NCBI RefSeq assembly: GCF_000013345.1
Contig: NC_007777.1
Coordinates: 2,728,001 to 2,792,000 of the forward strand
Source of the DNA: Frankia casuarinae
GTDB taxonomy: Bacteria > Actinomycetota > Actinomycetes > Frankiales > Frankiaceae
Direction of reading: 5' to 3'
Length of the DNA stretch: 64,000 bases
Below, in pieces: positions 13,168-35,087 of the stretch (position 1 is its first letter; each line of letters opens with the position of its first letter). A model generated the notes under the pieces. That model saw only the letters and a program-made list of their open reading frames with translations. It ran no database searches and was not told where the DNA came from. A program made the translations under genes and the position numbers.

Positions 13168-15615
13168 CTACACCAGCGGCGCCGCGGCGGACACGCTGAG
13201 TGTCAGGCGGCTGGTCATGTCGAGTTTCACCTCGCCGTACGGGGCGACGTGCGTCCAGAATAACGGGGTCAGGCCGCGCAGGTCGGCGTCGGTGAGCTGC
13301 TCGGCCCAGTCGTCGTCGGCGAGGACGTCCTGGACCATGAGCGTGTTGACGTAGACCAGGGCGGCCTGCAGGACCCGTAGGCAGAGGACGGAGAGTTCCT
13401 GTTCGTCGCGGCGGTTGGTGGCGATGTCGCCGCCCTTGCCGAAGAAGATGACGCTGTTGGCGCGGTTCCAGGACTCGACGACGTTGAGGCCTTCGTTGAT
13501 CTCGCGTTGCAGGTCCCGGTCGCGCAGGTAGCGGGCGACGAACAGGGTCCGCTGCGCCCGCCCGACCTCGATCATGGCCTGGTAGGTGGGGTGGATCGCG
13601 TTGGTCCGGGTGAAGCGGCGCAGGATCGCCTCGGCGGAGGCGGTGCCGGTCCGGATCGCGGTGGCATATTTGATCATCTGGTCGTACTGTTCGGCGACGA
13701 CATCCCAGCGGATCGGCCGGGTCAGCGCCGGACCGAGCCGCGGGTAGGCGTCCGGTTCGCCAGCAGCCGGCCGGTAGAGCCGAACCTTGTTGATCCGTTT
13801 GATACGTGGGAGCAGGTCGAAGCCGAGCAGACGGGTGATCCCGAAGCCGATCTCGGACTGGCCGTGGGAGTCGACGTAGGTGCCCTCGACCTCCATCGCC
13901 GTACCGTGCCGGATCGCGCCTTCGACCATCGCGGCGACCTCGGACGCGGTGCAGCTGATCAGCTGAGAGTGGATCGCCATGCTTTTACGTTCGACGTGCC
14001 AGTAGATCAGCACGCCGCGGCCGCCGTAGCGGGAGTGCCACTCGGTGAAGATGTTCTGGTCGAACGCGCCGAAGTGCGTCGAGTCGCTGGCCACCGCGGT
14101 GGAGCCGGCGCCCCAGACCTGCTGCGCCCGGGCGGCGAAGGTGGCGTTGGCGATCTCGACGGCGACCGTGCGGGCGAGCTCGGCGGTCAGATACCGGCGG
14201 CGCACGTAGCGCAGGTCGTCCTCGCTGTGGCCGTTCTGCGCGTTGCCGGCGACCGCGCGGATGCCGGTGTTGGTGCCGTAGGCGTAGATCGCGAGCATCA
14301 GCCGTTCGGCGAGCACCTCGGGGGCCAGGTCGCCACGGCCGGCCATGGTGGTCGCGGTCGCGAGGCAGCCGGTGCGCAGGACCGCCTCCTTGAGCATGTC
14401 GATCAGGGGGACGGTGCCCCACCGGGTCCGCACCTCGGCCTTGAGGCGGCGCAGGTTGCGCGGTTCGGGTGCGGCGTCGAGGTCGGTCAGCCGGATCGGG
14501 CCGTTCCTGCCCCGCTCGGCGATCTCCAGCCAGGGCAGCTTCGGCAGCGCGGTGTCGAGCGCCGCGAGTTCGGTCCGCATCTCCTCACGTAGCTGGTCGA
14601 TGAAGGCGGTCGGGTCCAGCGGCTTACGCAGGGCGGCGTAGTGCGTGGCGCGCTGGGCCTCGAAGTCGGCTGGCAGGTCTTCATCGGGGTTGCGCCACTT
14701 CTCCGCGCCGACGACCCAGATCTCCTTGCAGCGCAGGCTGTCGCACAGGGCCTGGAAGGTGCAGATCTCGTAGACGCCGCGGACGACCCGCTTCGGGCCC
14801 TTGGCCGGGTCGGTGAACACCAGCTCGTTCCAGTCGCCCAGCAGCCCCTTGTGCGTCGGGACCGTCTCCCCGACGGGGAGGTACGTCAGCCGGGTGTCGG
14901 CGTATCGGCGGATCAGGTCGAGGGCGTCGAGGACCGGCCGGTGGGTGTCGTTGTTCGACCGGAACTCCAACACGTCGAGCAGCGCGATCAGCCCGCGCCG
15001 GTAGTGGTTCGAGTACGACGCCTTCAGCGTGGTCCGCACGGTGCGCCGGTACACCGGCCCCTTCGTCTTGAACTCGGCCACCAGCTCCCGCAGCGTCTGC
15101 TCCCCACCCGCGACCGCCGGGAACACCACCTCACGGACCGGCTCGTCCGGACTGCTGAGCGAGGCCTCAGCGATCGCGAACAGGATGTTCTCCTTGCCGG
15201 TCACCCGCTTGAACGCGTTGATCAGCTCCTCGGTGACCTTCCGGTCCGCCCGCGCGCCGATCCGGTGCACCGTCGAGATCAGCAACTCCACCAGCGTGTC
15301 CGTGATCTCCCCGTGCCGGTGGTGCAGCAAGGCCGCGAGCAACGTCAGCATCAGCGGGTCGGGATGGTCCCGCAGGTGCGACGGGGACTCCACCGCGGCC
15401 CGGGTCCGCCACGCCGCGACGACCCGCGGGGCGACATCGGCGAACAGACCGTCGGGCAGGTCGACCGCGCGGACCGCACGCATCTTACGGATCTCGGTCA
15501 GCATCGAGTCCAGACTCACGTTGCCCGGCACCGACTTGATCAACGCCAGCACCGACTCCTGACCGGTGTCGTCGTCCGGGACATCGACCGCGACCAGGGC
15601 GCGGATCAGCCACAT
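13168..15615 (-). pseudogene. tnpA: Tn3-family transposase lacking its N-terminus
   Basis: The 815 codons cover the catalytic part of a Tn3-family transposase. DDE residues lie in VASDSTHFGAFDQN, VEGTYVDSHGQSE and INEGLNVVESWNRAN, and IKRINKVRLYRP is the usual middle segment. Family members are about 950-1000 aa, so roughly 150-180 N-terminal residues are missing. The frame opens at 15615, exactly where a second, opposite-strand Tn3 fragment begins. I saw no clear 38-bp Tn3 terminal repeat at the 13.1-kb end. Confidence 0.9.
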
Positions 15616-21367: not shown

Positions 21368-21541
21368 TAGGGGGACCGCGCCGAGTGCGAACCAGCCGAT
21401 CAGCGGCCAGCGCAGCTCCCGGTGATTGAACCAGGCCCGGCTGCCGTTGCTGGACAACTGGGTCAGCGTCAGCACGGGCACCGCGAAGCGCAGCCCGAAC
21501 AGTGCGGTAAACACCGGCAGGAGCAACACGCCGCCGCCGAC
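21368..21541 (-). pseudogene. TauE/SafE-family permease fragment
   Basis: Fifty-eight codons read VGGGVLLLPVFTALFGL, AVPVLTLTQL and NHRELRWPLIGWFALGAVP. This matches the first part of TauE/SafE sulfite-exporter-like permeases, including the conserved GGG and the Asn-Arg loop. Nothing of the family continues on either side. It is fused in frame to a recombinase scrap upstream. Confidence 0.68.
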
Positions 21542-21565
21542 GCGGCCAACAGCGTCAGCCCGGGC

Positions 21566-21640
21566 GTTGAGCTTCGGTTTCTTGCCGCGGAGCCGGCCCT
21601 TGGCCTTGGCGATCTTCATGCCTTCCCGGGTCCGCATCCG
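21566..21640 (-). pseudogene. Resolvase fragment
   Basis: Codons for RMRTREGMKIAKAKGRLRGK and KPKLN match the region linking the catalytic and HTH domains of Tn3-type resolvases. The catalytic domain and the HTH are missing. The reading frame continues directly into the TauE-like fragment, which shows that unrelated sequences have been joined. Confidence 0.65.
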
Positions 21641-21655
21641 CAGACCCGCGGCGCC

Positions 21656-21988
21656 GGCGGTGAGCTGCTGCTGCCGCTGGGCATCTTCCGGGACCGCAAC
21701 TTCGCGCTCTCGAACGTCGCCGTCGCCGCGGCTGGCGCGGCCGTCCCGGCGGTGCTGGTGCCGCTGTACTTCTATCTGGAATCGGTGCGCGCGATGTCCG
21801 GCGCGGACGCCGGGCTCGTGGTCGCGCCGATGGCGATCCTCGCGATGGTGTGCGTGCCGATCATTGGGATCTTCGGGGACCTGATCCATCCGCGGGTGAT
21901 CCCCTCGGCGGGTTTCGCGCTGTTCGCGGTCACGCTGATGATTTTCGCGATGTTCATGACGCCGGACTCAGTCATTGGCTGTTCGTAG
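21656..21988 (+). pseudogene. DHA2-family MFS transporter fragment
   Basis: The plus strand encodes LGIFRDRNFALSNVAVAAAG, LYFYLESVRAMSGADAGLV and VCVPIIGIFGDLIHPRVIPS. These match two or three helices from the C-terminal half of EmrB/QacA drug efflux proteins. Both ends are truncated: the left by the recombinase scrap, the right by the large serine recombinase start. The right junction may be where that recombinase's element inserted. Confidence 0.7.
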
Positions 21989-21991
21989 CAT

Positions 21992-23485
21992 ATGGGTATG
22001 GGCGAAACGGGCACAGGGCCAGGGCAGGCGCGGATTCGGCGTCAGGCGCGGTACGGGCGTAAGCGGGCGTCGCGGGAGGACTGGGCGGGGCAGTCCGCGG
22101 CGATCTACTGCCGGATTTCGCACGTGGCGGACGAGGACCAGACGGGGGTGGACCGGCAGGAGCGGATCTGCCGGGAGGTGGTGCGCCGGTTGGGGTTGCG
22201 GGTGGCGCATGTGTTCGTCGACAACAACCGGTCGGCGTGGAAGCGTGATCGTAAGCGCAAGGGGTGGGATCGGCTGTTGGAGGTGGCGCGTGCTGGTGAG
22301 GTTCAGCATGTGGTGGCCTACCATCCGGACCGGCTGATGCGACAGCCGAAGGATCTTGAGGAGTTGTTGGCGATCTCGGATGATCGGGACATCACTCTTC
22401 ATGGGCAGGCCAACCAGCGGGACCTGTCCGATCCGGATGACCGGTTCTTCCTGCGGATCGAGGTGGCGCATGCGTGCCGGTCGTCGGATGACACGTCGCG
22501 GCGGATGAAGGACGCGATGGTGGACCGGGCCAACGACGGGAAGCCGCATCCGGGCAAGCGCCGGTTCGGCTACACACCGGACGGCATGAGCATCGTCGAG
22601 GCGGAGGCGGAGGTGGCGCGGGACATCGCCGCGCGTTACCTGGACGGCGCCACGTCGATCCAGATCGCCGCTGTGCTCAACGAGCAGGGCAAGGTGACCG
22701 CCAGCGGGCGGCCGTGGGACGAGTTCTCCGTGCTGGCGGTGTTGGACTCGCACCACGCGGCGGGTATCCGGGTGTTTCGAGGTGAGGAGATCGGTCAGGG
22801 GATCTGGCCTGCGATCTTCGATCCGGGGACGTGGGCCGAGATCCGCGACCGGCGTTCCTACCGGGCCGCCGCGCACGCGGCGACCAGGACCCCCGCCCGG
22901 TTCTTCCTGCTGCGCGGGATCGTGACGTGCAAGCGGTGCGGCACGCGGATGGCCGGTACCGGTGGGCATGTCTCGCCGGGTTACCTGTGCTCGCGCAAGT
23001 ACCGCACGGATGAGCAGAAGTGCTCCCGGCGGATCAACGCTCCGGCGTTGGAGGCGTTCGTCACGGATGCGGCGGTGGATCTGCTGACGCGGTTGGACCC
23101 GTCGGGGCAGGAAGCCGCCGCGACGTTGACGGATGCCGACCAGGCCGCGATCGAGGAGGACAACGCGGAGCTGGCGGAGTTGAAGGCGATGTGGAACGCC
23201 CGGGAGATCAAGTCGCGGGAGTACCGGGAGATGCGCCGCACCGTGGAGGAGCGGATCAAGAAGGTGCAGCGCAAGACGGTGGTGCGCCCGGCGGTGGAGG
23301 TGCTGGCGGGGCTGACCGGGCCGCATGCCCGCGCGGCGTGGGATGCGCTGGTGGAGGCCGAGGAGTACGAGCGGATGAACGCGGTGCTGCGGTTCCTGTT
23401 CGCCGCTGTGGTGATCGACGAGTCGCGGGTGCCGCGTGGCCAGTTCGACTACAGCCGTATCCACATCGATCAGAACCCGCTGTGA
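21992..23485 (+). CDS. Large serine recombinase
   Basis: The 497-aa protein has an N-terminal catalytic domain (AAIYCRIS with Ser43, TGVDRQERICREVVRRLGL, YHPDRLMRQPKDLEEL). A Recombinase domain follows (GKRRFGYTPDG). The zinc ribbon has CKRCGTRM and later Cys residues (YLCSRKY, KCSR), and a coiled coil (AAIEEDNAELAELKAMW) lies near the end. Such enzymes integrate and excise phages and islands; it starts 4 bp after the MFS fragment stop, so the attachment junction is expected there. Confidence 0.92.
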   Translation: MGMGETGTGPGQARIRRQARYGRKRASREDWAGQSAAIYCRISHVADEDQTGVDRQERICREVVRRLGLRVAHVFVDNNRSAWKRDRKRKGWDRLLEVARAGEVQHVVAYHPDRLMRQPKDLEELLAISDDRDITLHGQANQRDLSDPDDRFFLRIEVAHACRSSDDTSRRMKDAMVDRANDGKPHPGKRRFGYTPDGMSIVEAEAEVARDIAARYLDGATSIQIAAVLNEQGKVTASGRPWDEFSVLAVLDSHHAAGIRVFRGEEIGQGIWPAIFDPGTWAEIRDRRSYRAAAHAATRTPARFFLLRGIVTCKRCGTRMAGTGGHVSPGYLCSRKYRTDEQKCSRRINAPALEAFVTDAAVDLLTRLDPSGQEAAATLTDADQAAIEEDNAELAELKAMWNAREIKSREYREMRRTVEERIKKVQRKTVVRPAVEVLAGLTGPHARAAWDALVEAEEYERMNAVLRFLFAAVVIDESRVPRGQFDYSRIHIDQNPL

Positions 23486-23587
23486 CCCTGGCGGGTAGCA
23501 GACGCGCAACGGCCGCGGGGCCGCCCACGGTGAACGTGGGCGGGCGCCCCGTGCCGTTGTCGGTCTGTTCGTGCCGCTGTGGCGTTC

Positions 23588-23845
23588 TCAGGCCGCGTGG
23601 GGGCCGTCTCGCCCGTCGTCGGTGGCGGTGTCGGGTGGGGACAGCAGTCGGGCGAGGCGGTCGGCCGAGCGGCGGCTGATCGTGGTGGTGAATCCGGCGC
23701 AGACCCGCGCGAGGTGAAACGCCCGGTCGGTCGGATCACCGCCCGGCGGGTCGGTGGTCGATGGCTGGTCCGGTGGTCCGTCGTCGTCGGTGGGGGTCGG
23801 CGTGGAGGGGGGACGACGGGTAACGGACGGACCGACCAACGGCAC
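23588..23845 (-). CDS. Small protein, copy A of a duplicated gene
   Basis: An 85-aa frame (GTG start) has a Pro/Asp/Thr-rich N-terminus and a conserved core FHLARVCAGFTTTISRRSA followed by RLARLLSPPD. A close relative lies at 24459-24737. The two share the core, the ending HAA and the upstream sequence TGTGAGGTGCCGT. The core looks like one or two helices. I do not know the family. Divergence of the N-terminus with a preserved core supports a real protein. Confidence 0.6.
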   Translation of the reverse strand: MPLVGPSVTRRPPSTPTPTDDDGPPDQPSTTDPPGGDPTDRAFHLARVCAGFTTTISRRSADRLARLLSPPDTATDDGRDGPHAA

Positions 23846-23985
23846 CTCACACGGCGATGCGCCTGGTCGGGTCGACCGGGCGCGCGGTGCGGGGACACGG
23901 CGAAACAGGCCCTGACATCAATCACAACGCCGACCGGCGGCTATCTATTCCAAACGCAGGCAAACACAGGCAAACAGCGATCAGC

Positions 23986-24156
23986 GGTGTAGCGCGTAGC
24001 GGTGGTACCCGCCGTCCACCGGCCGCCAGAGCCGCGTGGACGGCTTGGCCGCGTCGGGCCGCTACCCGCTACACCTCTACGTCCGCGCAGGTCAGCGCGG
24101 CCACGGCGTGTAGCGGCGTAGGTAGCGCAGCCGCTACCCCCGCCCCACGCCGCTAC
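23986..24156. repeat. Repeat array 1, GTAGCG/CGCTAC core
   Basis: Eight copies of GTAGCG or its complement occur in 170 bp (23989, 23996, 24060, 24067, 24110, 24122, 24132, 24151). GGTGTAGCGCGTAGCGG (23986-24002) is the inverse of CCGCTACCCGCTACACC (24059-24075) with one mismatch. CGCTACAC and GTGTAGCG form a further inverted pair 33 nt apart. Just left (23952-23980) is a short CAAACRCAG tandem repeat. The pattern resembles iterons or clustered operators. Confidence 0.6.
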
Positions 24157-24240
24157 CCCCGCCGGACCGCGCCGCGACGAGCCCGGCCGGATCGGGACAG
24201 CATCGCCGTCAAGCTGCCCGCCCGGAACGTGCGGGCGGGG

Positions 24241-24411
24241 GTAACCGGTAAGGCCCGCCTGGGCGACCCGAGAGCCGTATTAGGCCGGGTTGACGGGTCG
24301 GGCCGCGCCGCGGGTTACCCGTTACACCGATGCTCGTGCGCAGGTCAGCGCAGGTCTCACGAGTAACCGAGGGTGTAACTCTGCGGTTACGGTCCTGCCC
24401 GGCGGTTACAC
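24241..24411. repeat. Repeat array 2, GTTAC/GTAAC core
   Basis: Seven copies of GTTAC or GTAAC lie at 24241, 24314, 24321, 24363, 24375, 24386 and 24405. GTTACACC (24321-24328) and GGTGTAAC (24372-24379) form an inverted pair. The layout GGTTACCCGTTACACC parallels GCTACCCGCTACACC of array 1 with a changed core, and both are followed by CGCAGGTCAGCGC. The arrays therefore look like diverged copies of one site type. Confidence 0.58.
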
Positions 24412-24458
24412 GTCGACGGGCCGCCACCGGTGTCCGTGGGCGGCCCGGTGGCGGGTTC

Positions 24459-24737
24459 TCAGGCCGCGTGAGAGTCCTGCTGCCCGTCGTCGTCGGGCGG
24501 GGACAGCAGTCGGGCGAGGCGTTCCGCCGAGCGGCGGCTGATCGTGGTGGTGAATCCGGCGCAGACCCGCGCGAGGTGAAACGCCCGGTCGGTCGGCCCG
24601 CCCGCCTCTGGCGCCGGTTCGGCGCCATCCGCGCCCGTGCCCGCCGCTCCGGTCCGCGGCGGCCCGTCCGCGCTGTGCGGTGGATCGTCGCGCGGGTCGG
24701 TGTGAGCGGGACGGGGCAGGCGGGACGGATCGACCAC
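24459..24737 (-). CDS. Small protein, copy B of the duplicated gene
   Basis: The 92-aa frame shares the core FHLARVCAGFTTTISRRSA plus RLARLLSPPD and the HAA ending with copy A at 23588-23845, while the N-terminus differs. The nucleotide identity is nearly complete over the core and falls off toward the N-terminus. A competing GTG start in another frame gives an Arg/Pro-rich product with less plausible composition. Function is unknown. Confidence 0.6.
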   Translation of the reverse strand: MVDPSRLPRPAHTDPRDDPPHSADGPPRTGAAGTGADGAEPAPEAGGPTDRAFHLARVCAGFTTTISRRSAERLARLLSPPDDDGQQDSHAA

Positions 24738-24890
24738 GGCACCTCACAGAACAGGCAGAGGGGGAATTCGGCGAATAAACGCTAACCGTGCGATCCGCTT
24801 TCGCCAAGAGCGGCACGTTCCGCAGGCCACCCCCCTGCCCGCGACCATGATTAGATAGGATGCCAGTAGGCAACTAAGTCTTGGCCCACT

Positions 24891-25245
24891 TGGGTACACC
24901 CCAGATACCCTCCGAGCTGCGCAGATGCGCCACGCCGGGTGTACCCACTAAGCAGGTACACGGTTGGGGTCTCCGTTGGGTACGCGGACGGGGCACCGGT
25001 TGGGACATCCGGCAAACGGGGCATTTTATCGCAAAAGCGGCACGGCGGTGTGGGCGAGATCACAGCGAAAGGGGGTTCCCTGTGGGCCTGCTGGCGTCCG
25101 TGCCAGATGCCGCTGTCAGGGAAAGCCGACAACTGTGGTTGTCGCTCGGCTGCCATGCGCGCGAGCTATACCGCTGCCGGAGAACGGCACGGAAAGGGGC
25201 CACATCACGGCTCCGCAGGCCGCTCCTATACTTTCAACAGTACCC
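24891..25245. repeat. Repeat array 3, GGTAC/GTACC core
   Basis: TGGGTACACCC (24891-24901) and GGGTGTACCCA (24937-24947) are perfect 11-bp inverted arms 35 nt apart. More GGTAC or GTACC copies lie at 24955, 24979 and 25240, the last within TACCCGTTGGGTA. The spacing and the CGCAG-containing interval resemble arrays 1 and 2, again with a different core. Confidence 0.52.
25127..25144. promoter_or_regulatory. Palindrome CGACAAC-N4-GTTGTCG, remote copy
   Basis: CGACAAC TGTG GTTGTCG is identical in arms to the five copies at 34.3-34.8 kb, where they surround and lie inside an HTH protein gene. It is likely a binding site for that protein. It stands inside repeat array 3, about 540 bp from the end of the phosphotransferase gene. 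Confidence 0.6.
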
Positions 25246-25685
25246 GTTGGGTATTTAAGTCGCGGAGTACTTGGGTGGGTGTGAAAGGTGCTATGACCTG
25301 CGCCAGTGCGGCATCGCAGACCCACCCGTCTTTACGGGGGGTCCGGCGGGCGGGCCGATGGGGGGTCCGGTGGGCGGACCAACGGGAAGCCGGACAATTC
25401 TGGCCAAGCAGGATGTAGCGGACCTGCGGCCGCCTGCGGACGCGCTGATGCCCAGCGGCCGGGGCCACGGCCGTCCAGAACCGACGCCCGGACCCACCGG
25501 ACACCCACCGAGGCGCCTCGACTGAACACGTAGACCGTGGGGGTACGAGTCGGGATGTCCTCGGGTGACCCCAGCGGCAGCGCGACCTGCGCCAGCACGC
25601 CCCAGCGGGATAGCGGCTCAAACGGGAGATCGGAACGGCGACCGGTACGGCTACACGACGGGCGGGGGGCGTGCCGCGATGATGT

Positions 25686-26600
25686 TCAGAGCGCAGGTTG
25701 CCATGGCCACGGTCGCGGACCGAGGAGTCCCCGTATGGAATCCACGCGTTTCCGTGCCTCGGATTGCCATCCATCGTCTTTTGAAGCCTGCTGAGCTACG
25801 TAACAGGCCATGCGTAGCTCGCGAATGTCCCGGAGGGTTTCGAAGCCGCTCCAGTTCGTGACGTCGTGGCCGTAAACCTCGACGAACTCAGCGTACTCTC
25901 CGGCTGTGATCCAGGCGAAGGAGCTGTGTTTGATGGCGGTCGATACGAGGTCCCATTCAGGTGGGCCGATAGAGAAGCGTTCGAGGTCGAGGAGTACGGT
26001 TTGGCCGTCAGGGGTGACCACGAGGTTCCCTCCCCACGCGTCGCCGTGAACGGCGCTGAGCGGCAGCCCTGGCGGCAGGCTGTTGTACCGACTTGTTAGA
26101 GTCTCGACTCGGTTTCGCAGCCAGTGACGGTCAGCGGCGGTTAGCGTGCGTGCCCCCTCGATGCGCTCGCGTAGCCGTGTCATGGGTGACAGGGGATCGA
26201 GCGTAAATCCAGTCGGTGGTGGAATGGCGTGAAGTGCCCGCAATGCTGCTGCCACCTCCCGTGGTGTCCCGTGTCGGTGCGGGGGTAGTTCCTGCCAGAA
26301 CGTCACGGCGTGCCCGCTGATGACAACTGGCTGATGGGCGGCGCCTGGCAGCGCCAGCGCGCGAACGGCAGGGAAACCGTTCTCTTCAAGCCAGCGGGAG
26401 ACCGTCACCTCTTTGGCTGCGACTTTCTCCTGGCCTGCGCGGCTTATGCGGGCGATAATGCCGCCCGGGAGACGGAAGATGGTGTTCTCGCCCTCCCGGA
26501 GGAGTTCGGCCGAGCCGTACGGAACACCCGCGTGGACGCAGGCTGTCCGCAGTAGTTCTGTACTGTCCCCGCTCGGCTTGTCGCGATGCTGGCCGCTCAT
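25686..26600 (-). CDS. Aminoglycoside-phosphotransferase-like kinase
   Basis: The 304-aa protein has the APH/choline kinase fold: nucleotide-binding N-lobe (GENTIFRLPGGIIARISR), catalytic loop SAVHGDAWGGNLVV (HGDxxxxN) and metal-binding LLDLERFSIGPPEWDL. The substrate is unknown; relatives phosphorylate antibiotics, sugars or small alcohols. Its ATG overlaps the stop of the upstream XRE regulator by 4 bp, so the two act as a unit. Confidence 0.85.
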   Translation of the reverse strand: MSGQHRDKPSGDSTELLRTACVHAGVPYGSAELLREGENTIFRLPGGIIARISRAGQEKVAAKEVTVSRWLEENGFPAVRALALPGAAHQPVVISGHAVTFWQELPPHRHGTPREVAAALRALHAIPPPTGFTLDPLSPMTRLRERIEGARTLTAADRHWLRNRVETLTSRYNSLPPGLPLSAVHGDAWGGNLVVTPDGQTVLLDLERFSIGPPEWDLVSTAIKHSSFAWITAGEYAEFVEVYGHDVTNWSGFETLRDIRELRMACYVAQQASKDDGWQSEARKRVDSIRGLLGPRPWPWQPAL

Positions 26601-27910
26601 GCGGAGCTGGTGACCGTCTGAATGTTATGCCTGAGTTCCGCGACTTCATCGATCCGTTCGTGTCGTTTCGCGAATGTTCCTAGCTCGCGTATGTCATCTG
26701 CCGCCCGTCGAGAATGTACTTGTCCTGCGGCGCGGAGTGCCGCGGAGCCGACGATGGCCGCTTCTTGCGGGTCGCCGGTCTTCATCATGAGCGACGCGAG
26801 TTTTGTCTGGCTGATGGCTATGGACCGGGCGAACGTGGCGCTGTGTCCAGTGACCGCACCGTCCAGACGCCGCGCAGCCTCCGGCGCGTGCCTGGCGTTT
26901 CTGACCGCCAGATCGAAAACGGCGTGACCGGTGTCTCCGACGTGTTGAGCGAGGTCGTAGTAGGCCATCCAGACCGGATCGTTTTCCGGCTCGGACTGGC
27001 TAAACTCGTCGTCGGCCTGGCCGATGATCCGTAGCGTCTCCTGCTCCCGACCCAGCTTTGCGAGCGCACGTGCCTTGGCGGCAAGGAGCATGGCGCGTTC
27101 GGTGGGCGTAAGGCGTTCGGCACGAATGAAAGCGACGTCTACCAGCGTGAGGCCCATATCAGGGTCGCCTCGCCAGATAGCCTGCCTGGCCATCGACGAA
27201 AGCGCTTTTGCTCTCAGGTGCCAGTCACCCGCCTCCTCGGCACACGCGAGCGCGAGAGAGAACATTCTTCGAGCATCCTCGTGGACGTAGGCGTCGAACG
27301 CCATGAACGCTGCGGTATGCGCGAGGAAGCCGACCGAGGTAAACAGTTCGTCGCGCAGACGTTCCGGGCAGCGTGCGTTCAGGAGATTCACGGCGTAGCG
27401 GAGCTGGCCGGCGACCGCCTCGCGTACGAGCCCGCCGCCGTACGTGTGGTCAACCGTTCCGAACAGACGCGCCGCCATTCGCAGTTGATCAATCTCTTCG
27501 CGCCCCACGACGGCGGGCACGTCGGGAGGGGGACTCGTGGCCAGCTCGGTGAAGGAGCCGGTCACGACGGCGGCGCCTACGCCTGCCATGGCGCGCAAGA
27601 ACTCGCTTCGGTTCACGTCCTCAGTGTTCCGCTCTGTGCGACGTGGTCGACGGAAGCCCAGCTCCCGATCTTGCTTGGTGGCCAGGACGGCGTGAAACGC
27701 CTGCCGGTACAGCGCGTCAGGCCAGCGGATCAAGCCGCGTTCCAGCTTGCCGATGTAGTTCCCGTCGATCGCCGTCTCACGCCCGGTCTGCTCGTAGATC
27801 CAGGCGTTGACCATCTCGGCTAGCTCGCGTCGGGCCAGGGGCTCGCCTGGTGCCTCGGGCGACTCCACACGGACGCGGGCCGCCCGGAACAGGTGGTTCG
27901 GTTCCGCCAT
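26597..27910 (-). CDS. XRE regulator with TPR-like helical repeats
   Basis: The 437-aa protein starts with an HTH-like region (LARRELAEMVNAWIYEQTG, NYIGKLERGLIRWP). Residues 180-420 form helical repeats of TPR type (AYVHEDARRMFSLALACAEE, AMLLAAKARALAKLGREQET). Proteins of this design are common regulators in Streptomyces and Frankia. It is coupled to the phosphotransferase by an ATGA overlap and is divergent from the forward cassette; the 27911-28084 region is a shared promoter region. Confidence 0.82.
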   Translation of the reverse strand: MAEPNHLFRAARVRVESPEAPGEPLARRELAEMVNAWIYEQTGRETAIDGNYIGKLERGLIRWPDALYRQAFHAVLATKQDRELGFRRPRRTERNTEDVNRSEFLRAMAGVGAAVVTGSFTELATSPPPDVPAVVGREEIDQLRMAARLFGTVDHTYGGGLVREAVAGQLRYAVNLLNARCPERLRDELFTSVGFLAHTAAFMAFDAYVHEDARRMFSLALACAEEAGDWHLRAKALSSMARQAIWRGDPDMGLTLVDVAFIRAERLTPTERAMLLAAKARALAKLGREQETLRIIGQADDEFSQSEPENDPVWMAYYDLAQHVGDTGHAVFDLAVRNARHAPEAARRLDGAVTGHSATFARSIAISQTKLASLMMKTGDPQEAAIVGSAALRAAGQVHSRRAADDIRELGTFAKRHERIDEVAELRHNIQTVTSSA

Positions 27911-28084
27911 CGTCTCGTTCCTTCCGGGGCGCTAACGGCCCATCATGGCACGCCCGCCATGCGGCCGTAAGTGGTCCGTCACGGGCCGTAGACGATCAAT
28001 CCCCCCTATCATCCCCTTGACATCCCTGCTCCCTGACCTGCCGGCATGAGCCGTGGACGCGCTGAACTGAAAGAAGGCCACACG

Positions 28085-28951
28085 GTGGCCGAAGAACACG
28101 CGGCGGAACGAGCGGGAAAGGGCGTCGGCATCATCATGGCCGGAATTAGCCTACGAGTCGAGTTGGAACGTCTACGTGATCGTATGCGCGCCGTTGGGAT
28201 GACGCATGAAGAGATCGCCGCCGAGTTCTCGCGTCGCTATCGGCTGCGCCCCCGGCCCGCTTTTCGCCACGCTCACGGCTGGACGCTGCAACTGGCCGCT
28301 GACCGTATCAACGCCCGTGCCGCGGATCTGGACATCGACCCACAGGGCAAGGCGACCATGACCGTGCCTCGCCTGAGCGAATTGGAGAACTGGCCAAATT
28401 CCACTCGCCGCAGGCCGACCCCGCAGATGCTCGCGCTTCTCGCCTCCGTATACGGGACCGACGTACACAGCCTCTTGGACATCGCCGACCGCGAACACCT
28501 CCGACCGGAGGACAGGCTTCTCCTCGACACGATGAAGGCGGCCGGTCATAGGCCACAAGACCCGACGTCGGACGCCGATACGCCGGGTATCCCCGAGCGG
28601 CCGTTCCCGCCCGCACGGCCGCCGCGCTCTCCCTATTTCGGGCTCTCCACCCTCCCGCCACAACCAGAAGACCTCACCACGACGAACGTGCTGCTCTATC
28701 TCCAGCGGCTCAGGACAAGCCCCGTCGCGGGCGCAGGTGGCCCTGAGCCAGATCACATCGCGTGGGCAGCTCTCACCGAGCGGGCAGACGCCATCGCCCA
28801 CGAGTTGCGCTGGCTCACCAGTCACGTGACCAGAATCGCCGGACGGATCAGTACCGCCCCCGACCATCACAACCCGCAGGAAGGCGGCGGGTGCTGCCGT
28901 GCTCGCCCCGGCGTCCCGGATCACGACTCAGGCCATTGCGCCGACCTATAG
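28085..28951 (+). CDS. HTH regulator at head of nucleotide cassette
   Basis: The 288-aa protein contains an HTH-like domain: ISLRVELERLRDRMRAVGMT, HEEIAAEFSRRYRLRPR, then VPRLSELENWPN and TPQMLALLASVYGTDVHSLL, with a long inserted loop typical of an actinobacterial XRE subgroup. I chose GTG 28085 because AGAAGG lies 7 nt upstream; ATG 28137 is possible. The C-terminal third is Pro-rich with a final helical segment. It heads a forward run of closely spaced genes to 33743. Confidence 0.75.
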   Translation: MAEEHAAERAGKGVGIIMAGISLRVELERLRDRMRAVGMTHEEIAAEFSRRYRLRPRPAFRHAHGWTLQLAADRINARAADLDIDPQGKATMTVPRLSELENWPNSTRRRPTPQMLALLASVYGTDVHSLLDIADREHLRPEDRLLLDTMKAAGHRPQDPTSDADTPGIPERPFPPARPPRSPYFGLSTLPPQPEDLTTTNVLLYLQRLRTSPVAGAGGPEPDHIAWAALTERADAIAHELRWLTSHVTRIAGRISTAPDHHNPQEGGGCCRARPGVPDHDSGHCADL

Positions 28952-28961
28952 GCGGTATCCG

Positions 28962-29555
28962 ATGACAGGCACCCAGCGTCTCCGGCCAGCGGTCTACGTC
29001 GAGGTGTACCGGGCTCCCGCGACCGCCGCATCGGTGGGCGACATACGGCGGCATGTCGTCGAACTGGTCCAGCAACGAGGAGCCGAAGACTGCGCCTATA
29101 CGGCCGAGCTGATCGTGAGCGAACTCGCCACCAACGCCGTGAAAGCGTCTGAAACTGCGAGACAACCGATGATCGCCGTCCGGACGTCCTTCATCGGCCG
29201 CCTACTCACCGTCGAAGTCTGGGACGGAAGCCCTGCGCTACCGGAGGCAAGACCCACCGATCTCGACTCGGAAGGCGGCTTGGGACTATTGCTCGTCGAC
29301 GAACTCGCGCAACGCTGGTCGTACTACCTCACAAAATTAGGGAAGGTCGTTTGGGCGGAGATCCCCCTCCCCGAGCCCGTCGCCGTGGATAACCTCTCAG
29401 GCCCAAAACAGACAGACTTGCCAAGACGCGAGCTGCTTACGGGGCTACGCACGCGCCTATCGGACTTCTCAGCCGACTTCGTGACCGACATGGCGACACT
29501 CCGGCGCGTCGTGGACCGCCTCCGCGCGCTCGACGACTGGACGACTGGCGAGTAA
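28962..29555 (+). CDS. RsbW-like ATP-binding protein
   Basis: The 197-aa protein has the GHKL ATPase fold of anti-sigma factor kinases: N-box TAELIVSELATNAVKA, G1 VEVWDGSPALPEA, and G2 GGLGLLLVDELAQRW. A 60-residue C-terminal extension is charged and helical. The start ATG 28962 is 10 nt after the preceding stop. Regulator-plus-HATPase pairs are frequent in actinobacteria. No sigma factor is adjacent, so a partner other than sigma is possible. Confidence 0.82.
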   Translation: MTGTQRLRPAVYVEVYRAPATAASVGDIRRHVVELVQQRGAEDCAYTAELIVSELATNAVKASETARQPMIAVRTSFIGRLLTVEVWDGSPALPEARPTDLDSEGGLGLLLVDELAQRWSYYLTKLGKVVWAEIPLPEPVAVDNLSGPKQTDLPRRELLTGLRTRLSDFSADFVTDMATLRRVVDRLRALDDWTTGE

Positions 29556-29599
29556 CTGCCCCAAACTCAGGAACTCATTACAGAAAGCCGGGAGTCCAG

Positions 29600-29983
29600 A
29601 TGGAACGACCGTTGGCCTATGGATACTTCAGTCTCACCGCAGAGGATGACGACGAAGTCTCCCGCCTCAACAGGCAGGTCAAGGACTACGCCGACGCCGA
29701 GAGCTATGTCCTCGCCGAGATCTACGTTGACCGCAACATGCCACCGGGCCGACTCATTCGACCTGCGCTGACCACGCTGCTCGACTGCCTCCGCCACGAT
29801 GACCGCTGTAGCGTCATCGTGCCTAGCGCCGACCACATCTCGCCCTGGCCGCTGATTAGAAAAGCGATAGCAATGGAAATCCAGCTTCTCGGCGCGAAGC
29901 TGGTCGTCGCCAGCAACACAGCTCACGAACCGCCCGGCGTCGCCGCATGGCGGGCCGAACGGGACACCGGGCAACAGCTGTGA
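29600..29983 (+). CDS. Short serine-recombinase-like protein without catalytic Ser
   Basis: This 127-aa protein has the shape of a resolvase catalytic domain: LAYGYFSLTAEDDDEVSRLN aligns with GYxRVS, followed by a helix, EIYVDRNMPPGRLIRPALTT and CSVIVPSADHIS. At the nucleophile position Thr replaces Ser, and no HTH follows. It cannot be an ordinary recombinase. RBS GGGAG is present, and its stop overlaps the next start (GTGA), so it is a genuine operon member. Confidence 0.68.
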   Translation: MERPLAYGYFSLTAEDDDEVSRLNRQVKDYADAESYVLAEIYVDRNMPPGRLIRPALTTLLDCLRHDDRCSVIVPSADHISPWPLIRKAIAMEIQLLGAKLVVASNTAHEPPGVAAWRAERDTGQQL

Positions 29984-30675
29984 CCACATCTCACACCTCC
30001 AACATTGCGTTCGCCGGGCTCACGGCGGCCGGAAAGACGACCCACGCAAAGCGGCTGGCGGACGAACTTGGCTACCAGTACGTCTCCGCGACCGAGATCC
30101 TGTTGGAGATTCTCGGAATAGAGCAGACCGGCGAGTCCGTCTGGCTCACTCGACTCGGTGAGACCAACGCGGCCCGCAGCAACGGATCAGTAGACGCCGA
30201 GTTGGAGGAACGGCTCGTCTCGCTGAACCGGACCCGACAGAGAACCGTCTTCGACACGTGGGCACTCGCGTGGATCGGTGACAGCCCGCTCCTGCGTATC
30301 TGGATCGAATCCGACCTCGAATCGCGAGTCAGAAAATGTCTTGTCTCTCAGGGTGATCGAAGAACGAGCCCCGATCGGTGCAGATCCCTCCTCGACGAGA
30401 AGGACAGTTTCAACCGTCAGCTATTTCAGCGACGACACGGTTTCGACCTGTTCACCGACAGGCACCGCTATGACGCCGTCCTCGATAACAGCCATCTGAT
30501 ACCTAACCCTACAGAGTCCGCGGCCCGCTCCGGGATCGAGGCATTCGCGCCCGTCATCCATGCCGTAGCGACCTGCGTCATGGCCGACGACCAGGCGGAA
30601 GCCGAGCGCCTGATCCAGACCCATCCGCAGGAAGTTCGACGGATCACGCTGCCGAGCAGACCGCAGCCGCGCTGA
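29980..30675 (+). CDS. P-loop kinase, nucleoside/cytidylate-kinase-like
   Basis: The 231-aa protein begins with Walker A GLTAAGKTT (G13-T20) and HAKRLADELGYQYVSATEIL, the pattern of (d)CMP and shikimate-type kinases. RTVFDTWALAWIGDSPLLR is the Walker B-like strand, and ESDLESRVRKCLVSQG with nearby Arg residues looks like a LID. The GTG start overlaps the previous stop by 4 bp. The substrate is unknown; a nucleoside monophosphate is the best guess from fold. Confidence 0.75.
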   Translation: MTTSHTSNIAFAGLTAAGKTTHAKRLADELGYQYVSATEILLEILGIEQTGESVWLTRLGETNAARSNGSVDAELEERLVSLNRTRQRTVFDTWALAWIGDSPLLRIWIESDLESRVRKCLVSQGDRRTSPDRCRSLLDEKDSFNRQLFQRRHGFDLFTDRHRYDAVLDNSHLIPNPTESAARSGIEAFAPVIHAVATCVMADDQAEAERLIQTHPQEVRRITLPSRPQPR

Positions 30676-30729
30676 CGCCACGACGCCGGCCGCACAGCAG
30701 ACACTTCGATCAGGTCACGGGGACCAGCC

Positions 30730-31656
30730 ATGCACAGCCTTCTACACTGCCACTTCGAATCAGCCTTACGGGCGCTCGAAATCGCGAAACCCGAGAGGGT
30801 AGGTTACCTACGAGGCGTATACGAGACAGACGCCTACCTACAGTCAACGCCTGCGGAACGGCTAACCCTGCTCTGGCAGACGGTCATGAGCCTGACCGAC
30901 GACGCGGACATCTTCACCGAGGCAACGTTCCGCCGAGTCGTCCGCCGCCTTCTGGACGAGATGCAGGCGTCGCGGATCGAACACATTGACCTCCGCATCG
31001 GTCCGTCCACAGGCCGCTGGCGATGGATGCACAGCGCCGGTGACGGCATCGACATCTTCCGCGAGGAGCTTTCCTACCGTACCGCTCTTTCCATAACGTT
31101 CCTCGCTGGCGTGAACATGACCAAAACCCAGGACCAGCTAGATGCGCTGTTTGACGTCCTATCCGAGCAGGATGACCTGACGACCCGCATCGCCGGCGTA
31201 GACCTCAATTTTCTGCCCTACGATCTCCCGAAGTTCAACCGCTATCTTCGGACTCTGCGGAATCTGCAAACCGGCGGAATGAAGGTAAACATCCACCTGG
31301 GAGAGTTGTTCAACAACGCGATCTCCCACTACGTCCTAGCCCGCATCACACCCGACCGGATCGGCCACGGCGTTCTGCTTCTCGACGACGAGGCGCTTGT
31401 GGACTTCGTGCGAGCCAACGGCATCTGTCTCGACATGTGCCCAACCAGCAACACATTGCTGGGAGTCGCCGATTGGAACCGAACGAGCCCGGCGAGGGTT
31501 GCACTCCAACTCGGCATACCAGTGTCCATCAACACCGACGACCCCGTTCTGTTCCGCACGAGTCTCGAAAGCGAGTTCAGCCTCGCTGGGCTGACCGGCG
31601 ATGAATACGATCAGGTCATCGCCTGCGGAAGGAAGTACCGCTATGGCGACGCCTGA
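30730..31656 (+). CDS. Adenosine-deaminase-family enzyme
   Basis: The 308-aa protein keeps the metal and catalytic residues of adenosine deaminases: HCH (H6, H8), NIHLGEL (H189, E192), RIGHGV (H213) and NTDDPVLF (D270, D271). The CPTSN segment is also present. It is shorter than standard ADA (about 340-360 aa), and the N-terminal strand is trimmed to MHSLLHCHFESAL. The likely reaction is hydrolytic deamination of an adenine nucleoside or relative. It overlaps the next gene by 14 bp. Confidence 0.85.
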   Translation: MHSLLHCHFESALRALEIAKPERVGYLRGVYETDAYLQSTPAERLTLLWQTVMSLTDDADIFTEATFRRVVRRLLDEMQASRIEHIDLRIGPSTGRWRWMHSAGDGIDIFREELSYRTALSITFLAGVNMTKTQDQLDALFDVLSEQDDLTTRIAGVDLNFLPYDLPKFNRYLRTLRNLQTGGMKVNIHLGELFNNAISHYVLARITPDRIGHGVLLLDDEALVDFVRANGICLDMCPTSNTLLGVADWNRTSPARVALQLGIPVSINTDDPVLFRTSLESEFSLAGLTGDEYDQVIACGRKYRYGDA

Positions 31657-32263
31657 GACTACCATCCACATCGTCTACGGTATTCCGTGCGTTGGGAAGT
31701 CGACCGGAGCGGTAGCATTCGCGCATCACCGGGCTATCAGAACCGTCGTTCAGACTGACTACCTCAGAGAGGTCCAGAGAGCCTACGTGGACCTCGAACG
31801 CGTTCCGGTGCTCGCCAAGGTGACGCACACCGCCTGGGAACTCTATGGATCGCCGACCCAACACAACATCGTGACCGGATTCGCCGATCATGCCGCAGCC
31901 ATCGCACCGGCCATCGGGCAAGTGGTCAGAAAGCTGGTCCTCGACGGATTCGACGCAGTAGTCGAGGGAGCGCACTTTCACAGCCCGATCATTGCCGCGC
32001 TGCGAGACGAGAACCGAACCGCGCACATACGCGCAACGCTACTGATCGTCCGGACCGCCGAAGAACTCAGGAAGCGCGTAGCCCAGAAGGGCCGAGACCG
32101 AGCGGACGGCAACCCGCTCAAAGAATGGCAGGACAACATCCCCTTCATGCTCACGATCCAGGACTACCTCATCGCCGACGCCCGCGGGAAGGACATCGAA
32201 GTCAGCACAGCCGACGAATGGAGGCGGTCGTGGAATCCGACCGACGTGCCCTCCTCGACCTAG
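31643..32263 (+). CDS. 2-phosphoglycerate-kinase-like P-loop protein
   Basis: The 206-aa protein has Walker A GIPCVGKST (K19) and the segments VVQTDYLREVQRAYV, NIVTGFADHAAAI and VLDGFDAVVEGAHFHSPII. These match the P-loop domain of archaeal-type 2-phosphoglycerate kinases and their bacterial relatives. GGAAGG lies before ATG 31643 inside the end of the deaminase gene, so the two are coupled. The true substrate may be a nucleoside or sugar alcohol. Confidence 0.76.
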   Translation: MATPETTIHIVYGIPCVGKSTGAVAFAHHRAIRTVVQTDYLREVQRAYVDLERVPVLAKVTHTAWELYGSPTQHNIVTGFADHAAAIAPAIGQVVRKLVLDGFDAVVEGAHFHSPIIAALRDENRTAHIRATLLIVRTAEELRKRVAQKGRDRADGNPLKEWQDNIPFMLTIQDYLIADARGKDIEVSTADEWRRSWNPTDVPSST

Positions 32264-33171
32264 ACCACGTCGTAACCGAGGACGGCAAGATCTACCGAGT
32301 CCTCGGCAACCTCGACAGCCGGACTCATTTTCTCGGATACAACGTCTACTCGCCGCATCCAGAAGGCGACAGATTCTACCGCAACGCCCGGTACCGGAAG
32401 AACTTCATCGAAGACGAACGACTGCCAGCGGACGTACTCGATACCTACACGCTCGTCCCGGTGCAAGAAGTAGCCGAACATCACGACCCGATTCGGTCCG
32501 CAATCGCAATGGTCGAGACGTTCCGTTCAACCGTCTGGTTCGACCTCTACACGGAACTGGTCAAGCTCGTCGGACCCGAATCGGTGGGCATCTTCGGGTC
32601 ATCGATGTTCGGTCTTCACCTCACCCCCAGAGGAACAGTGCGTAAAGACGTCGACTTCGTGATCCAAGACTTGGCCAACGTCGAAGTCCTCCGAAAGGAG
32701 CTGCCCGGTATTCGAGATCGGCTGGGTTTCACCACCGTCACAGCCGAACGCCAAATCCAGCAGTACGAGCGCTACCGACGGGTATTTCGCAACGACAACA
32801 ACTCCATCCGGTCGATCATCGCGCGACGGTGGACCGGACTGCAACTCTCCAACGACGTCGTCACCACAATCCGCGTGCGAGACCGGTCACAAACGACGCC
32901 CGCCGCGCTGATAGCCCCCACGCCACGGGCCGACCACGTGACCGTCTCTGGCCGCGTCACGAACGCGAGCAGAAGCAACCTCTTCCCCCGCCGATTCGAC
33001 CTTGTAACCGGCAGTGGAATCGTCGAAATATACGTGCTGTGGTGGAAGTTCAGCACGCCGGTGCAGGACGGAGACGCTGTAACGGTACGTGGTAGCCTTC
33101 TACCGGCAAATCACGCACACGCCATCCGGCTCACCGACTACTCCCGGCACTGGCTCCGGATCGACGACTAA
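32230..33171 (+). CDS. Pol-beta-type nucleotidyltransferase with OB-like tail
   Basis: The 313-aa protein has three parts. Residues 1-90 (VVTEDGKIYRVLGNL, THFLGYNVYSP) resemble the N-terminal region of archaeal nucleotidyltransferases. The catalytic core is GIFGSSMFGL (G123, S124) and KDVDFVI (D140, D142). Residues 235-313 (DHVTVSGRVTNASRS, DGDAVTVRGSLLP) look like an OB fold. GGAGG at 32220-32224 precedes GTG 32230, which lies inside the preceding gene. It may add a nucleotide to RNA, protein or a small molecule. Confidence 0.75.
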   Translation: MESDRRALLDLDHVVTEDGKIYRVLGNLDSRTHFLGYNVYSPHPEGDRFYRNARYRKNFIEDERLPADVLDTYTLVPVQEVAEHHDPIRSAIAMVETFRSTVWFDLYTELVKLVGPESVGIFGSSMFGLHLTPRGTVRKDVDFVIQDLANVEVLRKELPGIRDRLGFTTVTAERQIQQYERYRRVFRNDNNSIRSIIARRWTGLQLSNDVVTTIRVRDRSQTTPAALIAPTPRADHVTVSGRVTNASRSNLFPRRFDLVTGSGIVEIYVLWWKFSTPVQDGDAVTVRGSLLPANHAHAIRLTDYSRHWLRIDD

Positions 33172-33197
33172 CCAGGACCCCGCGGAAGGTAGAAAAG

Positions 33198-33743
33198 ATG
33201 ATCGACCATGTCTCTCTGATCACCGGCAACGAAGGGAAGGCCCGGGAGTACGCCGCGCTTCTCGGAATCGAGGTCAAGGCCGTCAAGGAAGACCTGATCG
33301 AGATTCAGTCCCTCGACGTCGAAAAAGTGGTGCGACGAAAGGCCGAGGACGCCTATTCAAAGCTGCACAGCCCGGTGCTAGTCGATGACACCGGCCTAAC
33401 CCTGAGCGCCTGGAACGGGCTGCCGGGCGCACTGGTCGCCTGGTTCCTCGACTCGGTGGGCGCTCAAGGTCTGCTCGATATGGCCGCGTCGGTCACTGAC
33501 CGCACGGCCACGGTGACCACGGCGCTCGGCTACGCCGACGCTGACGGCGTCCGCGTCTTCACCGGCACGCTACAAGGCGTGCTGACCACCGAACGGCGGG
33601 GGCAGGGAGGCTTTGGCTACGACTCGATTTTCGCGCCGGACGGTGGCAACCTGACCTTCGCCGAGATGACCAGCGACCAGAAGAACGCCATCTCCCACCG
33701 ACGCCTCGCCGTGGACGCGCTCCGGCAAGGACTCGGGCTGTAG
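33198..33743 (+). CDS. RdgB/HAM1-type non-canonical purine NTP pyrophosphatase
   Basis: The 181-aa protein carries all key motifs of the family: LITGNEGKAREY at the start, LVDDTGL (D64), GFGYDSIF and SHRRLAVD. The enzyme hydrolyses ITP, dITP and XTP to monophosphates. The substrate links naturally to the deaminase-family gene two genes upstream. It is the last gene of the forward cassette and is followed by strong terminators. A housekeeping rdgB is expected elsewhere in the chromosome. Confidence 0.9.
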   Translation: MIDHVSLITGNEGKAREYAALLGIEVKAVKEDLIEIQSLDVEKVVRRKAEDAYSKLHSPVLVDDTGLTLSAWNGLPGALVAWFLDSVGAQGLLDMAASVTDRTATVTTALGYADADGVRVFTGTLQGVLTTERRGQGGFGYDSIFAPDGGNLTFAEMTSDQKNAISHRRLAVDALRQGLGL

Positions 33744-33781
33744 TCGGACCTTGGCCGCGCGGTGAGCCGAAGTCCGACTAC
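33740..33781 (+). terminator. Terminator at the end of the nucleotide cassette
   Basis: GTAGTCGGAC (33740-33749) pairs perfectly with GTCCGACTAC (33772-33781), with inner pairing of TTGGC and GCCGAA. The left arm includes the stop codon of the RdgB-like gene. Confidence 0.65.
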
Positions 33782-33844
33782 CGACTTCCCACGCGGACCG
33801 AGACCGGACCTCAGCGCCGCAAAGGCGGTCCGTCGTCCGCCTTC

Positions 33845-33890
33845 CCGAGGTGGGAGCGGTCGGCATCTGCCCGACCACTCCCACCTTCGG
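33845..33890. terminator. Bidirectional terminator between convergent genes
   Basis: Arms of 19 and 20 nt (33845-33863 and 33871-33890) pair around CATCTGC with one bulge and one mismatch. The hairpin ends one base before the stop codon of the reverse-strand HTH gene. Confidence 0.75.
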
Positions 33891-34745
33891 TCATAGCCGC
33901 GGCTTCCTCTGCCTGCCTCGCCGCTGCTCCCCCTGGTGGCGCAGGTCGGCAAGGAGGTGCGTGACGGCTTCGTCGCGAGTCCGGTAGCTGCGTCCTGGCG
34001 GGAAGACGGAGACGAGACCGGGAGCCTTCGGGAGCCATCCGCGCGGCCGGTTCCTCGTGGTGCCCGTGTAGTCGGGGCGCAGGGTGCCGGACTCCACGCC
34101 ATCGACGAGGACGCGGTAGCCGGTCTCGATCCGTACCAGGGTGTATCCGGTGTCCTCGGTCATGGCCGCGACAGCGGCCACCGCAGCATCCATCGCGGAC
34201 GGCAGCGAGCCTGCCCGCGCACGCGGCTGGTCCGCCGCCTTCTGCCGCCGGGAGGTGGCGGGCCGCCCGGCGGCATCCTCCGGGCCGCCGGTTCGGTCCG
34301 CCGTGGATGCGCCCGCACGCTCGACAACTGTGGTTGTCGAACCTGTGCGAGGCGCGGACGGGGCCGGTGTCCGTTCTGGCTTGCCGGTCGGTCGTTTCGC
34401 CGGAGCCACGGAGTCTGCCGCCGCCCCGGGCGCGACAACGACGGTTGTCGCCTCTGGCGTCGAGGCTGGCGGTCCGCCGATGAGATCCTCCGGGGGTCGG
34501 CTTCCAGCCGGCGCCGCTGTAGCGACAACGGAGGTTGTCGCTACAGGTGGGGTGGCGACCAGGCGCGGGAACCGCTTGCGCGCTCCTTGCCGCGTGATCC
34601 CCAGAGCGCGGCCGATGTCCCCGTAGCTCGCGCCCTCGGCCGCCGCCCGCGCCGCGAGTGTCCGAATCTCCGCTTCGATCGACCGTGCGCGTTCGCTCGC
34701 GTCCGCCAACTCGCCGAGCGTGGCCATGAGCGCATCGTCCGCCAT
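33891..34745 (-). CDS. HTH DNA-binding protein with operators in and before its gene
   Basis: The 284-aa protein has an N-terminal helix (ASERARSIEAEIRTLAARAA) and a helix-turn-helix SYGDIGRALGITRQGARKRF. A low-complexity middle contains TT-x-VV motifs encoded by palindromes. The C-terminal part (TGYTLVRIETGYRVLVDGVE, RDEAVTHLLADLRHQ) is compact. The start ATG 34745 abuts one palindrome, with a second 27 bp upstream, so autorepression is likely. No separate ribosome site is visible; the mRNA may be leaderless or the site may overlap the operator. Confidence 0.74.
   Translation of the reverse strand: MADDALMATLGELADASERARSIEAEIRTLAARAAAEGASYGDIGRALGITRQGARKRFPRLVATPPVATTSVVATAAPAGSRPPEDLIGGPPASTPEATTVVVAPGAAADSVAPAKRPTGKPERTPAPSAPRTGSTTTVVERAGASTADRTGGPEDAAGRPATSRRQKAADQPRARAGSLPSAMDAAVAAVAAMTEDTGYTLVRIETGYRVLVDGVESGTLRPDYTGTTRNRPRGWLPKAPGLVSVFPPGRSYRTRDEAVTHLLADLRHQGEQRRGRQRKPRL
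34321..34340. promoter_or_regulatory. Intragenic palindrome, 8-bp arms
   Basis: TCGACAAC TGTG GTTGTCGA is a perfect palindrome with a 4-nt spacer. It encodes Ser-Thr-Thr-Thr-Val-Val-Glu on the reverse strand, using ACA and GTT codons that are unusual in this GC-rich gene. Confidence 0.62.
34432..34451. promoter_or_regulatory. Intragenic palindrome, 8-bp arms
   Basis: GCGACAAC GACG GTTGTCGC is a perfect palindrome inside the HTH gene. It encodes Ala-Thr-Thr-Val-Val-Val-Ala. Arms match the promoter copy at 34746-34765 exactly. Confidence 0.62.
34517..34546. promoter_or_regulatory. Intragenic palindrome, 13-bp arms
   Basis: CTGTAGCGACAAC and GTTGTCGCTACAG flank GGAG, giving a perfect 13-bp-armed palindrome, the longest of the set. 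The codons are CCT GTA GCG ACA ACC TCC GTT GTC GCT ACA, unusual for this gene. The outer GTAGCG/CGCTAC equals the core of repeat array 1 at 23986. Confidence 0.65.
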
Positions 34746-34765
34746 GCGACAACCATAGTTGTCGC
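34746..34765. promoter_or_regulatory. Operator touching the HTH gene start
   Basis: GCGACAAC CATA GTTGTCGC directly precedes the ATG of the reverse-strand HTH gene. Binding here would block transcription or translation start. Confidence 0.68.
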
Positions 34766-34773
34766 CACTGCAA

Positions 34774-34791
34774 CGACAACCCTGGTTGTCG
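34774..34791. promoter_or_regulatory. Second promoter operator of the HTH gene
   Basis: CGACAAC CCTG GTTGTCG lies with its centre 27 bp upstream of the first operator's centre. Two operators at fixed spacing suggest cooperative binding. Confidence 0.66.
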
Positions 34792-35087
34792 CACAAGATC
34801 GCTGTGCAGCCTTGCACGCCAGGGCGTGTAGTCACAATGGACTGGGCGGATAGGGCCATTGATCGCTGGCATGCCGCCCAGCGACACAGCGTCGCAGGTC
34901 AGCCCTTGGTAGGCCAGCAGGGCTTGACTTCGCCGGTCGCCGTGTTTCTGGTGGGCGCCGGGCTGGTCGGGACAGCCAACGCCGCCATCTGGCCAACGCT
35001 CGCCGCGGCCGCGCCGCCCACAACCTGCCGCCGCACCAGGCAGGCGCCGGGGCCGGGGCGTACAACGCGGTCCGGCAGTTCGACGCG

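Follow-up and report, generated by a model that had tools for sequence, protein, structure and literature searches.

FtsK and SpoIIIE, motors of the FtsK type, use their winged helix to recognise KOPS and SRS, short polar words scattered over the chromosome. Among plasmid transfer loci, the clt of pWTY27 comprises 16 bp of traA plus 159 bp (PMC3583192). A passage of that article, citing Vogelmann 2011, describes the TraB of pSVH1 as reading 8-bp repeats via helix α3 of its C-terminal winged helix. IMEs, as presented in passages of PMC5704250, depend on relaxases and single-stranded transfer. Frankia elements without tra or rep are treated in parts of PMC3218068 as remnants or mobilisable elements, and in those parts no description of clt arrays of such elements was found.

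The stretch of Frankia casuarinae DNA analysed here (64 kb, hereafter the window) contains an integrated element with several repeat arrays (Table 1). From the sequence comparisons below, we consider it likely that these include clt arrays on a traB-less 13-kb element that would be mobilised in trans by a matching TraB.

Table 1 Features of the integrated element and its repeat arrays (positions in the window)
Feature	Position	Strand	Description
Integrated element, ~13 kb	21967..34925		Ends approximate; no traB-like gene found
Large serine recombinase (integrase), 497 aa	21992..23485	+	Resolvase, Recombinase and Zn_ribbon_recom domains
Small proline-rich ORF 1	23588..23845	-	ORF call; similar small ORF beside recombinase in related elements
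Array 1, putative clt-type	23986..24157	+	Eight words CGCTAC/GTAGCG; core CGCAGGTCAG at 24086-24095; homologues at traB 3' end
Array 2, putative clt-type	24238..24410	+	Eight words GTTAC/GTAAC, one of them GTAAG; core CGCAGGTCAG at 24339-24348; homologues 3' of traB with Ala/Gln/Ala wing
Small proline-rich ORF 2, paralogue of ORF 1	24459..24737	-	97% identical to ORF 1 region over 105 nt
Array 3	24881..24992	+	Words TTGGGTAC/GTACCC; core GAGCTGCG at 24914; orientation opposite to arrays 1 and 2
Possible array 4	25241..25375	+	Words TGGGTGGG/CCCACCC; core TGACCTGCG at 25294
Remaining element genes	25686..34859		Pfam: APH-like, HTH_31, HATPase, cytidylate-kinase-like, adenosine-deaminase-like, AAA, Ham1-like, HTH-like
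Third core copy CGCAGGTCAG	34893..34902	+	Near right end of element

Results

The element. Homology to genome G004 starts at 21968, where a fragment of an MFS-type gene (21422 to about 21966) adjoins the left end. To the right, an MFS-like remnant in two frames runs from about 34926 (recognised by eye; no family match), and the element, which apparently splits an MFS-type gene, is therefore about 13 kb long. By eye, the related recombinase of G004 also follows MFS-like sequence (L034 1380-1520; cf. window 21422-21988). A Tn3-family transposase at 13168-15615 lies outside the element. Of the features of an AICE, the element possesses the integrase and lacks TraB, no similarity to which was detected in the 64-kb window. 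Among the element proteins scanned by Pfam there is no relaxase or Par family and no Rep (RepSA, RepAM or Prim-Pol); small ORF 1 has no Pfam or NCBIfam match, and scanning the window for tRNAs and Rfam families returned nothing.

The two small ORF regions share the duplicated segment at 23630-23734 and 24492-24596, while the adjacent arrays have diverged; we read the segment as a recent duplication or a gene conversion. Palindromes of the form GACAAC-N4-GTTGTC occur at 25128, 34323, 34434, 34524, 34748 and 34775, five within or beside an ORF at 33891-34859, and similar ones are present in loci L006 and L031; they are possibly sites of another DNA-binding protein.

Arrays 1 and 2. Both arrays consist of several short direct and/or inverted repeats, as clt loci do, and have a common word geometry in which one base differs in each word. 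Array 1 has GTAGCG at 23989 and 23996, CGCTAC at 24060 and 24067, GTAGCG at 24110 and 24122, and CGCTAC at 24132 and 24151; array 2 has GTAAC at 24241 and GTAAG at 24248, GTTAC at 24314 and 24321, GTAAC at 24363 and 24375, and GTTAC at 24386 and 24405. The core array holds six GCTAC-type and no GTTAC-type words in array 1, and six GTTAC-type and no GCTAC-type words in array 2. In each of the two arrays an outward word pair lies about 70 nt upstream, and in an ungapped alignment 69 of 125 positions are identical between the two. When the 64-kb window was scanned for the six-word geometry with any repeated 5-mer, only arrays 1 and 2 were recovered, and 200 shuffles of 23-26 kb gave none.

The first-pass annotation had listed three parallel arrays and proposed shuffled sequence as a check. 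Its description of arrays 1 and 2 is strengthened by the exact word positions and by a geometry unique in 64 kb, and shuffled sequence did not yield equal numbers. Array 3 is real but belongs to a separate sequence family, with the core motif on the opposite strand. The outward pair of array 2, the pairs about 70 nt upstream, the weaker array 4 and the 105-nt duplication are additions to that list.

Linkage to traB. A profile from five seeds, followed by a sequence model of 26 arrays, was searched against 35 Frankiaceae genomes. It returned about 57 matches in 19 of them, so relatives do carry the arrays that had been suggested as worth seeking among Frankia mobile elements; the F. casuarinae genome has only arrays 1 and 2. 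Of the 13 loci encoding a TraB of the family, 12 have an array immediately 3' of traB, between about -40 and +130 relative to the stop (E up to 1e-4); at the 13th the match is weak (E 0.0074). Arrays homologous to arrays 1 and 2 are thus found at or beside the traB 3' end, as is usual for clt and as in pWTY27 (PMC3583192); the window itself is without traB. In genome G017 one element with such an array, 13.9 kb long, interrupts a methyltransferase gene; along with a serine recombinase and a small ORF it contains the array, on which an FtsK-like gene ends. The encoded protein (655 aa) was left unplaced by Pfam, NCBIfam and PDB sequence searches; judged by its motor motifs and by tblastn to plasmid FtsK/TraB proteins, pSVH1 TraB included, it is a TraB. 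Further Frankiaceae genes of this type were found by protein search. By eye, more distantly related TraBs, both inside and outside Frankiaceae, have arrays of their own, with other words, at the 3' end. With this placement, arrays 1 and 2 are very probably clt-type sites.

The F. casuarinae genome (5,433,628 bp, one contig) encodes no TraB of this family. Its own FtsK-like genes were rejected as partners of the arrays, no such array being present in their readable 3' flanks. No gene is common to all array loci except the recombinases, the split methyltransferase gene and the small ORFs.

Replication iterons, partition sites and operators, the roles first proposed for the arrays, do not fit best, because the array occupies the clt position at the 3' end of traB. 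That fixed place also weighs against operators or structured RNA controlling the small ORF, a function for which the location of array 3 upstream of small ORF 2 and the ability of the words to pair in a fold could be cited. Yet co-variation of the words is seen not only across strands but also within a strand, where pairing would not demand it, and no Rfam match exists, so that we regard such control as very unlikely. Even less credible is a role in attachment or excision by the serine recombinase: the arrays adjoin its gene and symmetric arms flank the core of array 1, but the same arrays accompany a tyrosine integrase as well as serine recombinases from several sequence groups, and lie inside the elements, away from the split-gene junctions. 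A recombinase-specific att site was rejected, since the arrays are common to several recombinase groups.

Words and the TraB wing. GCTAC words go with Asp/Arg/Asp, and GTTAC words with Ala/Gln/Ala, in the C-terminal DNA-binding domain of TraB. The two TraB types show 27 fixed differences in 648 aligned positions: 21 in residues 14-154, none in the motor (155-633) and six in the last 27 residues (634-660), where they include D/N to A, R to Q and D to A. The change between GCTAC and GTTAC is one event on the TraB tree and hence a single observation within the family. Over 48 TraBs, the partial correlation of word with wing given the body is 0.35 (p 0.0005), that of word with body given the wing 0.04; by correlation, the repeat is specific to the TraB winged helix. 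For arrays 1 and 2, the initial surmise that copies of one site have diverged and are each read by a separate protein variant is well supported, a matching TraB variant for each word type existing elsewhere in Frankiaceae. The pairings NRRG-CGCTAG and NRIG-CTAGAG are suggestive only. At TraB loci L070, L083, L188, L195 and L208, the words GCTAGC, GCTAAC, GCTACC and GCTATC are found with wings GKAV, GRIV or GKVV, GEQV and GKFV; these few cases possibly reflect a one-position code.

The same association bears on the idea that the arrays serve the excised element as replication iterons or in partition. Direct and inverted repeated words are typical of iterons, and RepA of pWTY27 binds such repeats (PMC3583192); here, however, the array follows traB, the words track the TraB wing once the motor sequence is allowed for, and the element proteins scanned include neither Rep nor Par. 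We therefore hold this role to be very unlikely.

The core motif. Read on the complementary strand, the core CGCAGGTCAG is CTGACCTGCG, a motif found again and again 3' of traB genes, among them that of pSVH1, whose recognition repeats have been determined experimentally; on the + strand of the window CGCAGGTCAG occurs only at the three positions of Table 1. Within 200 nt 3' of traB, the motif CTGAYCWG was present at 25 of 59 loci, compared with 3.7% of random windows (p 1e-20); these loci are related rather than independent, and because of this kinship the p values are too small. Counting against the clt reading, the strict motif is absent from the other 34 flanks. This comparison with control windows replaced a Markov word-enrichment test, in which only 10 of 41 TraB 3' flanks were enriched at p < 0.05 against resamples of the same window, because the Markov control retains the array's own composition. 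In the 3' flank of pSVH1 traB, GACCCGGA repeats occur together with CTGACCTGCGC; GACCCGGA is reportedly the repeat bound by pSVH1 TraB.

Arrays 3 and 4. Array 3 matches the sequence model of its family (R2) with E 4e-26, being itself one of the ten model-building sequences, and the family has matches in 13 Frankiaceae genomes. Array 4 matches the same model more weakly (25267-25372, E 1.1e-4), and a 66-nt copy of it, 91% identical, lies elsewhere in the F. casuarinae genome. At the copies examined no traB stood beside either array family, at its 3' end or otherwise, and neither array has a TraB partner. Arrays 3 and 4 have the core motif and an arrangement like that of arrays 1 and 2; guessing from this resemblance, they are probably clt-like sites for other TraBs, a role given to array 3 because of the shared motif and layout only.

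Loci without traB. Sorted by hand, 13 array loci were traB-less (no traB in the stretch examined) and 14 traB-linked, the absence of traB not being proven for every one of the 13, since several are on draft contigs. Mixed word types occurred at five of the 13 and at none of the 14 (p 0.016). In the traB-less arrays, the majority base reached 93% in word columns versus 63% in other columns. All traced traB-less loci but one had an integrase nearby. A second element of this build (G030:C138, about 9 kb) lies in a split methyltransferase gene that bounds it; on this element are three arrays, which fall into two types, and a relative of array 3. The outward word pair does not mark traB-less arrays, being present in 14 of 19 of these and in 8 of 10 traB-linked ones.

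A split or truncated Methyltransf_19-type gene was seen at element ends in L013, L015, L022, L024, L027, L029 and L032, suggesting that this gene is a favoured integration target of these serine recombinases. Similar-looking short proteins of no known family were noted by eye near arrays in several elements (G021:C2:937385-937621, G030:C27:6691-7548 and G013:C8:352559-352972).

The main rival to use in trans is decay, in which clt sites were left after the loss of traB, perhaps via tandem insertions, and are now inert. It would accord with the lack of a family traB in F. casuarinae, with the duplicated small ORF and with contigs that have several same-word arrays near one traB (G030:C27). Nevertheless, the words have stayed intact while the sequence between them diverged, mixed-word traB-less loci recur across several genomes, and in one of them (G030:C138) the split target gene marks the limits of the element. 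Decay thus appears unlikely, if clearly less so than the other alternatives; the mixed words, their conservation and the bounded G030 element favour use in trans, without proving it. On balance we lean towards a working multi-address mobilisable element rather than a remnant.

Discussion

In the mechanism that we propose, arrays 1 and 2 would be clt loci with short words to which TraB, the FtsK-like motor that moves double-stranded DNA between actinobacterial cells, binds through its C-terminal winged helix. Eight words in a fixed inverted and direct register would surround a core motif common to many clt-like sites, and the word would decide which TraB variant loads. Were a conjugative element with a matching TraB in the same cell, that TraB could load on the array and move the excised element in trans, and several arrays would mean several possible helpers. 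Carrying address sites without its own motor, the element therefore probably travels by borrowing the motors of other elements.

There is perhaps an even chance that this represents an actinobacterial class: integrative elements that lack traB but have multiple clt arrays with differing words, each for a different TraB and hence for several unrelated helpers, the word being set by a few TraB wing residues around a widely shared core as a readable address code. Sequence allows clt-like sites to be recognised 3' of traB in many genomes, those of Frankiaceae and of other actinobacteria. The tracking of word and wing, together with the mixed-word traB-less elements, makes pairs of helper and hitchhiker predictable and opens the question to direct testing in laboratory strains.

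Among described systems, the AICEs resemble the element in being integrase-driven and located in an actinobacterial chromosome, and related elements with the same arrays carry TraB; unlike AICEs, the window element has no TraB, and no Rep was found among the proteins scanned. Like IMEs it is integrated and would rely on the transfer apparatus of another element; it differs from them in that it would use a double-stranded TraB site. With KOPS and SRS the arrays have in common short words read by a winged helix, the Frankia words being gathered in compact arrays. There is also a likeness to the clt of the Streptomyces plasmids pSVH1, pIJ101, pJV1 and pWTY27, where repeats lie at or beside a single FtsK-like transfer gene, and the 3' flank of pSVH1 traB likewise has CTGACCTGCGC. 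In contrast to Streptomyces clt, the Frankia arrays comprise eight words in one fixed mixed register, and the window has adjacent sites of different specificity on an element without traB.
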